Source of the DNA: Planctomycetota bacterium
GTDB lineage: Bacteria; Planctomycetota; SZUA-567
Direction of reading: 5' to 3'
Length of the DNA stretch: 64,000 nucleotides
Assembly: GCA_031254915.1 (NCBI GenBank)
Contig: JAIRTL010000123.1
Coordinates: forward strand, 1-64,000
Shown here piece by piece: positions 41,470 to 44,517 of the stretch (the stretch's first letter is position 1; the number at the start of each line of letters is the position of its first letter). The position numbers and the translations under genes are program-made. The notes below the pieces were generated by a model. It made no database searches. It had not been told where the DNA came from and was given only the letters and a program-made list of their open reading frames with translations.

Positions 41470-42258
41470 TCAAAAATTGCCAAAAGTCATTTTCTTCAAA
41501 GCGGTTACGACCTTTTCGACCCCGTCGAGATGAATGCCCGAGTATCGGGGTCGGGCGACGGTGACCGCATGGATGCCGAGCGTCCGCGCCGCTTCGAGCT
41601 TTTCGGGAACGCCGCCCTCTATCCCGCCGTTTTTGAGAACTATCACTCCCGCGCCACAGGCGCGAAGGTGGCGAAGATTGTCTTCGAGGGAGAAAGGGCC
41701 GCGTTCGGCGAACACGTCATTGTCCGACATGCCGATCGCGAGGCAACGATCCCGGCTTTCGGGCAGGACCCTCGCGATTAACCTGATTCCAGCTTCGCGC
41801 GCCGCTTCGACGTACACCGTGAGTCGGTTCGCGCCGACAGTCGCGAGAACAGGCGCGTTGAACGACGTCGCCAGCGCCGCCGCCCCTTCGTGGGAAATGA
41901 CGGAATGAACCGACGGGTCGTCGGAGAGCGGCGTCTCCAGTCTGAGGAGAGAGATATACGGCACGCCGCACTGTTCGGCCACCGTCGGCGCGAGGCGACG
42001 AACCGCCTCCGCGTACGGATGCGATGCGTCGACGACCGCCTTGAATCTGCGGCTCTCCAGAAGTTCCGCAAATCCCTCCCGTTCGAGCGGGCCGCGCCGG
42101 ACGGCAATGGAGTCGCGCGGGGCAAGGTCGGAGGCGAGGTTGGTGGCCTGCGAGACGAGGACGGTCCAACCGTCGTCTGCGAGCGATTCCGCCAGGCGGT
42201 TGGCGAGGGCATTGCCGCCGAGGAGAAGGATTTCGCCCCTGCCCTCCGGGGCGGTCAC
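41470..42258 (-). CDS. cbiJ: cobalt-precorrin-6A reductase
   Basis: CbiJ reduces the macrocycle of cobalt-precorrin-6A with a nicotinamide cofactor. The 262-residue protein has a Gly-rich N terminus (ILLLGGNALANRLAE) and the family signature VDASHPYAEAV. Near the C terminus are the usual IVLKNGGIEGG and VARPRY. It starts with GTG and overlaps the cbiH stop by four bases (GTGA). It is the last gene of the cbiF-G-H-J group. Confidence 0.9.
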   Translation of the reverse strand: MTAPEGRGEILLLGGNALANRLAESLADDGWTVLVSQATNLASDLAPRDSIAVRRGPLEREGFAELLESRRFKAVVDASHPYAEAVRRLAPTVAEQCGVPYISLLRLETPLSDDPSVHSVISHEGAAALATSFNAPVLATVGANRLTVYVEAAREAGIRLIARVLPESRDRCLAIGMSDNDVFAERGPFSLEDNLRHLRACGAGVIVLKNGGIEGGVPEKLEAARTLGIHAVTVARPRYSGIHLDGVEKVVTALKKMTFGNF

Positions 42259-43034
42259 AACCGATAGCCCCGAAGCGTGACCATCCTGCCGCCGACAATT
42301 TCCGTCCCGCTGTTGCCGACGACGACGATGCTGCGCATGGTGATGTCGTGATGTTCGACGTCGTAGAGGCGTGTGAAGACGCGTGACGATGCGGGCGTGC
42401 CGGCGGCGGTGACGATGCCGCAGGGCGTCTCCGGTTGCCGGTATTGCCTGAGGATGCGGATCGCCTCCGGAAATTGACCGCGGCGGCGGGAGCTCATGGG
42501 ATTGTAAATGGCGGTTACGAAGTCGCCCCTGCCCGCGGCGTCGACTCGCATCATGACCGTTTCCAGGGGAGTCAGGAGGTCCGAAAGGCTGATGACGGCG
42601 AAGTCGTTCATCAGCGGCGCGCCAAGCTCCGCCGCCGCCGCGAGAACGGCGGTCACGCCGGGGATCGTCTCGATGTCGACATCGAGACCGTCTTTCACCG
42701 CCAGTTCAATGGCGAGCCCCGCCATCCCGTAGACGCCGGCGTCGCCGGAAGAGACGAGGCTGACCACGTCCCCCCGCACCGCCCGCGACAACGCCCAGCG
42801 GCAGCGCTCGACTTCGCCCTTCATGCCGGTGACGATCAACTCCTTCCCCTCGACGAGGTCGGCGATAGCATCCACATACGGCCCGTAACCGGCGATCACG
42901 TTGCTTTTTTCAAGGGCGCGAACGGCGTGCGCCGTCCGGTGTCCCGGATCTCCGGGGCCGATGCCTATGACAAAAAGTTTTCCTTCGCCACAGCCACAGT
43001 CACGCCGTTTATCACCGTCTTGGGCAGTAGTAAT
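42255..43034 (-). CDS. cbiH: cobalt-precorrin-3 C17-methyltransferase, start codon unclear
   Basis: CbiH uses SAM to methylate C17 and contracts the corrin ring. The recognisable protein starts KLFVIGIGPGDPGH, the usual N terminus of SAM-dependent corrin methyltransferases, with SSGDAGVYGMAG, ETIPGVTAVLAAAAELGAPL and AIYNPMSSRR. That point lies about 55 bases inside this frame, and there is no ATG, GTG or TTG between it and far upstream. The only plausible initiator is ATT at 43034-43032, which follows a perfect AAGGAG by about seven bases inside cbiG. A -1 frameshift from cbiG is the alternative. The 5' limit given here is therefore provisional. Confidence 0.75.
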   Translation of the reverse strand: MTTAQDGDKRRDCGCGEGKLFVIGIGPGDPGHRTAHAVRALEKSNVIAGYGPYVDAIADLVEGKELIVTGMKGEVERCRWALSRAVRGDVVSLVSSGDAGVYGMAGLAIELAVKDGLDVDIETIPGVTAVLAAAAELGAPLMNDFAVISLSDLLTPLETVMMRVDAAGRGDFVTAIYNPMSSRRRGQFPEAIRILRQYRQPETPCGIVTAAGTPASSRVFTRLYDVEHHDITMRSIVVVGNSGTEIVGGRMVTLRGYRL

Positions 43035-43741
43035 TTGGTTCTCCTTCCGGCAAGAAGCGCCGCCGGTTCGGCGACGGCGGGCAGGTTGACCCGCTTTCTC
43101 GCGGCCGGCGATTCGCTGAAATTGAGAGCCGAATTTCTCACAGCGTCGGACGAAATGAACCTGAGCGGACGGCCAAGCGACTTGGCCGCCTCGATGAGCC
43201 CGGACTCGTCCTTTTTCACGTCCACGGACGCGATCAGACGCAGGTCCTCGACGTCGGTGTCGATCAGTGCCAGGCCCTCCTCGATCGCGGCGACGACATC
43301 CTCGACGGCGACGCCCTTGCGGCAACCGACGCCGACGATGAGCGAGCGCGCGGCTTCAGTCGTAGTGGAGACGATGGATTCGGCGTCGAGAATGTTGGCG
43401 ACTTCGTTGGCGAGATCGTTGGCGCCGCCCTCGTGTCCGGAAAGGAGGCTGACCGCCCAGCGGCCGCCGACGTCGACGAGCACGACGGCGGGGTCGTTGA
43501 GCTTGTGGCGGACGAGCGGGGCAATCGCCCGGACGGCGACTCCGGTGGGCATGACATAGAGCAGGTTTTTCACCTTGGGGAAAAGCTTGGCGGATATGTC
43601 CTTGATGCGCTCGAAGGTGCTGTCGTCGTCGTTGCGCGCCAGGGTGATGTGGCGATAGACGCGGCTGTCGGGAAGATGATCCGCCAGACGTTCGGCGATC
43701 ATGAGACCCATCGGGCTGAGAGTGATTATGGCCGTCTTCAT
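42965..43741 (-). CDS. cbiG: cobalt-precorrin-5A hydrolase (short form)
   Basis: CbiG opens the lactone of cobalt-precorrin-5A and releases acetaldehyde. The 258-residue protein keeps the N-terminal domain (YVMPTGVAVRAIAPLV, LLSGHEGGANDLANEVA) and the C-terminal domain (VGVGCRKGVAVEDV, with VTVAVAK at the end) but lacks most of the middle domain found in longer CbiG proteins. It overlaps cbiF by four bases and runs into cbiH by about 70 bases if the proposed ATT start is used. The natural end of the fold is just before the stop codon. Confidence 0.9.
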   Translation of the reverse strand: MKTAIITLSPMGLMIAERLADHLPDSRVYRHITLARNDDDSTFERIKDISAKLFPKVKNLLYVMPTGVAVRAIAPLVRHKLNDPAVVLVDVGGRWAVSLLSGHEGGANDLANEVANILDAESIVSTTTEAARSLIVGVGCRKGVAVEDVVAAIEEGLALIDTDVEDLRLIASVDVKKDESGLIEAAKSLGRPLRFISSDAVRNSALNFSESPAARKRVNLPAVAEPAALLAGRRTKLLLPKTVINGVTVAVAKENFLS

Positions 43742-44517
43742 GGTTGCGTCCGTCCATCGCGATATCCGTGTTCGAACGATCTGGAATACAGGCGGCTGTC
43801 CTCCCCGGCGCCAGCCAACGCGCGGCCGAATACCGCCAGCGCCGTACGGGTTATTCCCGCCGCCGCCGTCTTCGCCGCAATGTCGGCGATCGTGCCGCGA
43901 ACGACGATCTGGTCCGGGCGGGAAACGTGGCGCACAACCGCCGCCGGGCAGTCGGAACCGAATTCAGGCTCCAGTTCACGCGCCGCGTCCGCAAGTTTGT
44001 CCACGGACAAAAACAGGCACACGGTGGCTCCGAGGCGGGAGACGGCGGCGAGGCTTTCACGCTCGGGCTTGTGCGTCCGCCCGGAAGCGCGCGTCAACAC
44101 CACGGTCTGCGCGACGCCGGGGGACGTAAGCTCCGTTTTCAGCGCGGCTGCGGCGGCGAGAAAGGAACTGACGCCCGGAACCACCCCGTACGCCACGCCC
44201 GCCTTGTCGAGTTCGCGCATCTGTTCGGCGATGGCGCCGTAGATGGAGGGATCGCCGGAGTGAAGCCTGACGACGCGCTTCCCAACCCGCGCGGCCTGCA
44301 CCATCGCGTCGACGATCTCCGTCAGATCCATGCGCGCCGAATCGAGGCGTTGGACATCCGCCGGCACAAGAGACGTAATGGCGTCCGGCACGAGCGAACC
44401 GGCGTAGACGCAACACTCGGCCGATCCGAGAAGGCGCGCCGCCTTCACGGTCAACAACTCCGGATCGCCTGGTCCCGCGCCCACGAACCAGACGCGCGTC
44501 TCGACGTCGTCGTCCAT
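43738..44517 (-). CDS. cbiF: cobalt-precorrin-4 C11-methyltransferase
   Basis: CbiF methylates C11 of cobalt-precorrin-4 with SAM. The 259 residues have VWFVGAGPGDPELLTVKAARLL at the N terminus (residues about 9-30), HSGDPSIYGAIAEQM, VVPGVSSFLAAAAAL and the C11-type signature ELTSPGVAQTVVLTRASGRT. The ATG is only two bases after the stop of the LolA-like gene upstream, so the cobalamin genes appear to be read through from the lipid-transport unit. Confidence 0.93.
   Translation of the reverse strand: MDDDVETRVWFVGAGPGDPELLTVKAARLLGSAECCVYAGSLVPDAITSLVPADVQRLDSARMDLTEIVDAMVQAARVGKRVVRLHSGDPSIYGAIAEQMRELDKAGVAYGVVPGVSSFLAAAAALKTELTSPGVAQTVVLTRASGRTHKPERESLAAVSRLGATVCLFLSVDKLADAARELEPEFGSDCPAAVVRHVSRPDQIVVRGTIADIAAKTAAAGITRTALAVFGRALAGAGEDSRLYSRSFEHGYRDGRTQP

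Follow-up and report, generated by a model that had tools for sequence, protein, structure and literature searches.

A cbiH gene without a usual start codon

How is a gene translated when its reading frame offers no usual start codon ahead of the protein's fold? This question is raised by cbiH in the window, as we call the whole 64,000-nucleotide stretch of the Planctomycetota contig analyzed here. The initial annotation had claimed that this gene lacks a usual start codon before the fold, and the window sequence confirms it. The CbiH frame is open up to 43355, and the sole NTG codon 5' of the ATT discussed below is a TTG at 43325, 97 codons upstream, which would give a 356-aa open reading frame. 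Between this TTG and the methylase fold there is no ATG, GTG, or TTG in the CbiH frame of the window, and the first NTG 3' of the ATT, a GTG at 42899, already lies within the fold. The features of this part of the cobalamin gene cluster, all on the minus strand, are as follows:

43738..44517, minus strand: cbiF (cobM_cbiF), overlapping the start of cbiG in an ATGA
42965..43741, minus strand: cbiG (cobalt-precorrin-5A hydrolase family), ATG start, 258 aa, with CbiG_N (PF11760) and CbiG_C (PF01890), both above cut-off
43041..43046, minus strand: Shine-Dalgarno (SD) sequence AAGGAG inside cbiG (AGG AGA codons), 6 nt 5' of the ATT
43032..43034, minus strand: ATT (AUU) proposed as the initiation codon of cbiH, in a column that holds ATT in 49 of the 50 long phase-2 overlaps without NTG between -90 and +3
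43031..43033, minus strand: cbiG codon TTA (Leu), the sole TTA in cbiG, which supplies the TT of the ATT
42965..43034, minus strand: double-coding overlap of 70 nt between the 3' end of cbiG and the 5' end of cbiH, phase 2, with cbiH in the -1 frame
42255..43034, minus strand: cbiH (precorrin-3B C17-methyltransferase, CobJ/CbiH family; TIGR01466, PF00590), 259 aa if read from the ATT, stop codon at 42257-42255
41470..42258, minus strand: cbiJ (precorrin-6A reductase), GTG start, with a 4-nt overlap with the cbiH stop

The protein read from the ATT belongs to the CobJ/CbiH methyltransferases, with 286 bits against TIGR01466 (cobJ_cbiH, curated cut-off 246.35) in a match from residue 20 and 114.2 bits against PF00590 from residue 19. 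The window CbiG reached 306 bits against NF005441, below its cut-off of 358. As CbiG_C spans residues 134 to 252 of this protein, the overlap with cbiH, most of which falls within CbiG_C, begins within a real domain. The two proteins do not share one open frame in the window: they are encoded in two different frames, that of cbiH being one base back (-1) from that of cbiG.

An AAGGAG had been described inside cbiG about seven bases upstream of the ATT. The motif is present, but the spacing is 6 nt; the best predicted anti-SD pairing at the window ATT is -8.8 kcal/mol. Among the Leu codons of 12 other long open reading frames in the window, TTA has a share of 1.4%; cbiG contains a single TTA, located precisely at the ATT. 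Such a placement of a rare codon points to more than chance.

Conservation of the ATT among relatives

A comparison of cbiG/cbiH junctions across relatives had been proposed in the initial annotation and was carried out on 301 CbiH loci (labeled L; genomes are labeled G). These gave 226 distinct junctions after dropping loci without a CbiH match of E <1e-20 starting within query residue 25, loci with <150 nt upstream, and duplicate junctions. Genomes were sampled around three centers, the window genome, a Desulfuromusa genome (G061), and an uncultured Spartobacteria record (G060), using E thresholds of 1e-25, 1e-45, or 1e-65 in the genome searches and keeping ≤30 loci per search. Sixteen extra stretches were hand-picked from the matches of one 1e-25 search, and one relative search contributed the best 80 of 583 matches. 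Owing to these thresholds, limits, and hand picks, the counts given here do not represent frequencies over all bacteria, and, as all CbiH loci were found with the window CbiH as query, in several searches with its ATT-started extension, the sample may favor ATT-type relatives.

Junction positions were numbered from the first base (0) of the Glu codon of EGKLFV, and an overlap was considered long when the cbiG frame was +1 relative to CbiH and cbiG ended at +16 or later. By this rule, the 226 junctions comprised 76 long phase-2 overlaps, 34 short overlaps, 48 without overlap, 7 with CbiH in a single frame with cbiG, and 61 left unclassed, with no recognized cbiG upstream.

Between -90 and +3, 50 of the 76 long-overlap loci had no NTG codon in frame with CbiH, and 49 of these 50 carried ATT at -48, the exception being L233, which has an ATG at +6. 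The window cbiH and its orthologs thus keep an ATT at one column where no usable NTG is found. No rival column appeared before the fold, the next best among ATT, ATA, ATC, and CTG being ATA at -27 (12/50). A TTG at +9 was also absent in 45 of the 49 ATT-only loci; it is present in L008, L038, L180, and L258, where it could serve. The ATT-type loci are related to each other, so that 49 stands for far fewer than 49 independent events. On the CbiH tree (made with a quick method from 84 rows and midpoint-rooted, with 31 of 81 inner branches open), ATT presence required 6 changes, and ATT-only loci fell in both halves.

Relatives also carry an ATG at or near the ATT column, and the ATT is kept in 11 of the 26 long-overlap loci that do have an NTG (for example, an ATG or GTG at -60), where it need not be the sole start. 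Loci L161, L167, L178, L179, L287, and L294 retain both GGAGG and the ATT, together with an ATG or GTG at -60, and their CbiG has a Trp where most others carry Arg. These six loci possibly use two starts or are changing from one to the other.

Another option of the initial annotation was a sequencing or assembly error, which could conceal an ordinary start or a fusion in one frame; it draws on the fragmented state of the window genome (137 contigs, 86.78% complete). However, the congeneric genome (L008, the only one among the matches listed; CbiH identity 79%) has the same SD sequence, the same ATT, and no NTG save the TTG at +9. Similar junctions were found in L010, L037, L038 (the isolate Desulfuromusa kysingii), and L039, and the layout is the same in single-contig genomes that are 99 to 100% complete (G449, G597, G606, and G569). 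Since independent genomes share the layout, we rejected an error as the explanation; its probability is next to nil.

Many genomes from the Desulfuromusa order also had CbiH within an open frame of about 770 to 890 aa (L184:1501-3723; also L163, L164, and L173). The second half of the frame in L184 matches CbiA/AAA_26 and GATase_3 and looks like cobyric acid synthase.

Codon choice at the ATT

In every one of the 49 ATT-only loci, the cbiG-frame codon after the A of the ATT is TTA, a codon that accounts for 6.5% of the Leu codons elsewhere in the same genes. The cbiG codon before it ends in A, again in 49/49, against a wobble A in 16% of codons elsewhere in these genes, and the amino acid that this A-ending codon specifies varies (Gln in 19 loci, Ser in 17, Arg in 6, Lys in 5, and Glu in 2). 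Among cbiG genes that do not overlap, TTA encodes the homologous Leu in 1 of 38; for short overlaps the figures are 1/18 and 1/12, and for long overlaps carrying an NTG the figure is 12/25. Elsewhere in the genes, TTA and wobble A stand at 18.6% and 26% for the 15 ATT-only loci from L208 to L224, so that the bias is weaker there than in the remaining 34, with 2.4% and 12%. The cbiG codons that hold the SD sequence are kept as well, the first being AGG in 40/49 and the second AGG, AGA, AAG, or AAA in 48/49. Because the A is fixed despite a varying residue and the TTA is fixed despite its rarity, the start, rather than CbiG, is the likely target of selection, which acts on these codons beyond what the overlapping protein asks of them.

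Open frame and initiation signals

The predicted anti-SD pairing before the ATT, at a proper distance from it, averaged -10.4 kcal/mol in the 49 ATT-only loci, compared to -6.8 kcal/mol for the 102 cbiH genes with an ATG start and -3.7 kcal/mol for positions internal to cbiG. When 200 nt were folded and the unpaired probabilities averaged, the segment from -58 to -29, with the SD sequence and the start, was the least paired (0.59 to 0.66 unpaired, with ≤0.53 in the other ten-base bins).

None of the 76 long overlaps had a stop codon in the CbiH frame from -48 to 0, and 34 had one from -96 to -48; in the third frame, 67/76 had a stop within the stretch between -48 and 0. In L224, from a genome in one contig that is given as 100% complete (G569), a TGA stands directly 5' of the ATT. 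With stops lying only 5' of -48 and this TGA right before the ATT, the frame is held open from the ATT onward and not before. The same pattern bears on a CbiH start at the TTG at 43325. Although this is the sole in-frame upstream NTG in the window, among the 49 ATT-only loci 25 carry a CbiH-frame stop from -96 to -48, which stands immediately 5' of -81 in 24 and is the TGA before the ATT in L224. The far upstream start was rejected on the basis of these in-frame stops. We give it practically no chance.

Initiation at the ATT, which had been put forward from the window alone, is strongly supported by the comparison through the shared ATT column, the bias for TTA and an A-ending codon, and the SD pairing. 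Judging from these sequences, cbiH is very probably translated by internal initiation at AUU behind a strong SD sequence, inside the coding end of cbiG.

Frameshifting and initiation at the fold

Another way to obtain CbiH would be a -1 ribosomal frameshift near the end of cbiG, which would produce a CbiG-CbiH fusion and make a separate CbiH start unneeded; the initial annotation had placed it near GAAAACTTTTTG. CbiH does lie in the -1 frame relative to cbiG, and the window GAAAACTTTTTG holds the tetramers A_AAC and T_TTG, the latter at +12. Of the 49 ATT-only loci, 46 have A_AAN at +6 in the cbiG frame, and in 42 of these, including the window, it is A_AAC; among the other 27 long overlaps, A_AAN is found there in 13. 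An SD-like sequence lies upstream, as is the case in dnaX frameshifting. Yet among the 49 ATT-only loci there is no conserved classical slippery heptamer in the cbiG frame: X_XXY_YYZ heptamers were found in four loci, at four different places, and none in the GAAAACTTTTTG of the window. The TTTTTG part of this sequence is not conserved, and the position of the cbiG stop varies from +19 to +97. Besides, A_AAC is absent from the frameshift-prone tetramers of E. coli in the available part of the source (PMC4066793), and the AAA at +6 encodes a CbiH lysine that is frequent without overlap too (K in 96/143, AAA in 67). A frameshift would also leave the conserved ATT, the TTA, and the A-ending codon unexplained, and an ATG stands at or near the ATT column in relatives. 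We consider it very improbable; the conserved A_AAC at +6 is the best remaining point in its favor and leaves it a small opening.

As the initial annotation had noted, fused corrin enzymes exist. CbiG and CbiH share a single frame in 7 of the 226 junctions (L266, L267, L269, L276, L279, L282, and L283), which belong to other lineages and all come from the phylum search around G060. In these frames, CbiH is preceded by the C-terminal part of CbiG or more, with 146 to 179 aa upstream in four of them and about 500 in three. Since such open frames exist, a CbiG-CbiH fusion would be tolerable.

GGAAAA at +3 to +8 (42983-42978 in the window) is near-invariant in the 49 ATT-only loci. The conservation of GGAAAA and of A_AAC can be read as double coding, as the codons of both proteins can account for it. 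A CbiH start at the fold itself would use the codon at +9 that precedes FVIG (CTG, CTT, or TTG), with the conserved GGAAAA upstream of it, and this codon is indeed TTG in 4/49 loci and CTG in 24/50. It is, however, CTT in 21/49, the window among them, and the predicted SD pairing for such a start averages -4.7 kcal/mol versus -10.4 for the ATT. The start would fall inside the first strand, and the ATT column would go unexplained. The CTT and the weak SD pairing led us to reject +9 as a general start, which we regard as less credible still than frameshifting.

Phase constraint and proposed mechanism

In phase 2, any NTG within the overlap would put a TGN codon, that is, Cys, Trp, or stop, into CbiG. 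This constraint on phase-2 NTG starts, which require TGN and hence Cys or Trp, is set out in the available part of Sabath et al. 2008 (PMC2542354). In our 76 long overlaps, 33 NTG codons occur from -90 to +3, and the CbiG residue is Cys at 25 and Trp at 8, as the code demands. Examples with Cys are LCLPR in L009, where an ATG comes right after the ATT, LICPR in L011, and VCEAAS in Desulfosporosinus-type loci, with an ATG at -87; Trp is found in AGWRT in L161, L167, and L178. For AUU, it is enough that a codon ending in A comes before TTA or TTG, so that the leucine of CbiG_C is retained, and AUU would be the initiator-like codon tolerable to both proteins.

With internal initiation at the AUU, fMet-tRNA would read this codon to give M-TTAQDGDKRRDCGCGEG-KLFVIG..., a CbiH of 259 residues with ~17 extra residues before the fold. 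The strong SD sequence and the little-structured start region probably offset the weak codon, and discrimination by IF3 against AUU probably holds CbiH below CbiG. The sequence, its conservation, the codon bias, and the phase constraint are direct observations, whereas we infer the ribosome's start at the ATT, its frequency, the phase constraint as the reason for this codon, and the role of IF3.

Comparison with known near-cognate starts

In E. coli, AUU starts are described for infC and pcnB (printed as pncB) in the available part of one source (PMC1780047). There, the AUU initiator lowers output, and infC is regulated via IF3, according to the accessible portions of that paper and another (PMC1780047, PMC5472188). 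The proposed cbiH start shares the codon; unlike infC and pcnB, cbiH is metabolic, and its AUU lies inside the coding sequence of another gene and is apparently tied to overprinting. A near-cognate start with an extended, unusually strong SD sequence is also known from Staphylococcus aureus cvfC1 (AUU) and ccpN and citZ (AUA), and the cvfC1 start is conserved among Staphylococci, as far as the available text goes (PMC13009471). That text does not describe these cases as lying inside an overlapping gene, and the cbiH ATT is found in genomes around three centers.

Streptomyces sigR provides another conserved noncanonical start, a GTC repressed by IF3. The available part of the source (PMC5472188) gives GTC for 32 of 34 species and GTT for the other 2, preceded by AGGAGGTG, and the operon is one whose stoichiometry is important. 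The codon differs from that of cbiH, and sigR is not described there as embedded in an upstream gene. The Cys/Trp constraint is shared with the long phase-2 same-strand overlaps of Sabath et al. 2008 (PMC2542354), which, in the part at hand, considers ATG, GTG, and TTG, whereas cbiH meets the constraint with ATT. In vitro, weak third-base pairs, including AUU/CAU, gave very low expression in the portion of the study available (PMC10158994). None of the literature matches listed was a paper on an AUU start of cbiH, most subscription papers being outside the coverage, and the AUU start is new for cbiH as far as the literature searches show.

We also looked at infC of the relatives by eye. Its start is ATG in the window genome, where no near-cognate infC regulation is therefore seen, and in several members of the family, which made infC of limited help as a control for the lineage. 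It is ATT without ATG in G002 and ATA in Desulfuromusa; in G007 and G008 an ATT stands behind GGAGGA, but an ATG is also found near the start of the domain. The ATT or ATA at infC of some relatives fits with usable near-cognate starts there. Within one family the infC start codons vary (L137, L140, L133, L160, L155, L156, and L127), and G006 and G010 apparently have ATT.

Implications

To our knowledge, good documentation of an AUU start exists for few bacterial genes. In the case of cbiH, a metabolic enzyme would keep AUU across deep divergence for a reason that is readable from the code, as the phase of the overlap forbids the usual starts, and with this overprinting logic the cbiH AUU would be a variant in its own right, more than one further example. 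Long phase-2 overlaps are predicted to be the ground in which to search for other hidden near-cognate starts. It may be, although we put this a shade below evenly balanced, that the cbiH AUU is an old, selected answer to an overprinting conflict, that such starts form a hidden class missed by gene finders that consider only ATG, GTG, and TTG, and that a B12 enzyme is under the control of IF3. The results suggest that, in ATT-type genomes, cbiH would be placed wrongly or dropped by annotation. The junction would also allow one to test, in a natural setting, how a weak codon is offset by a strong SD sequence and whether IF3 sets enzyme ratios in a pathway.
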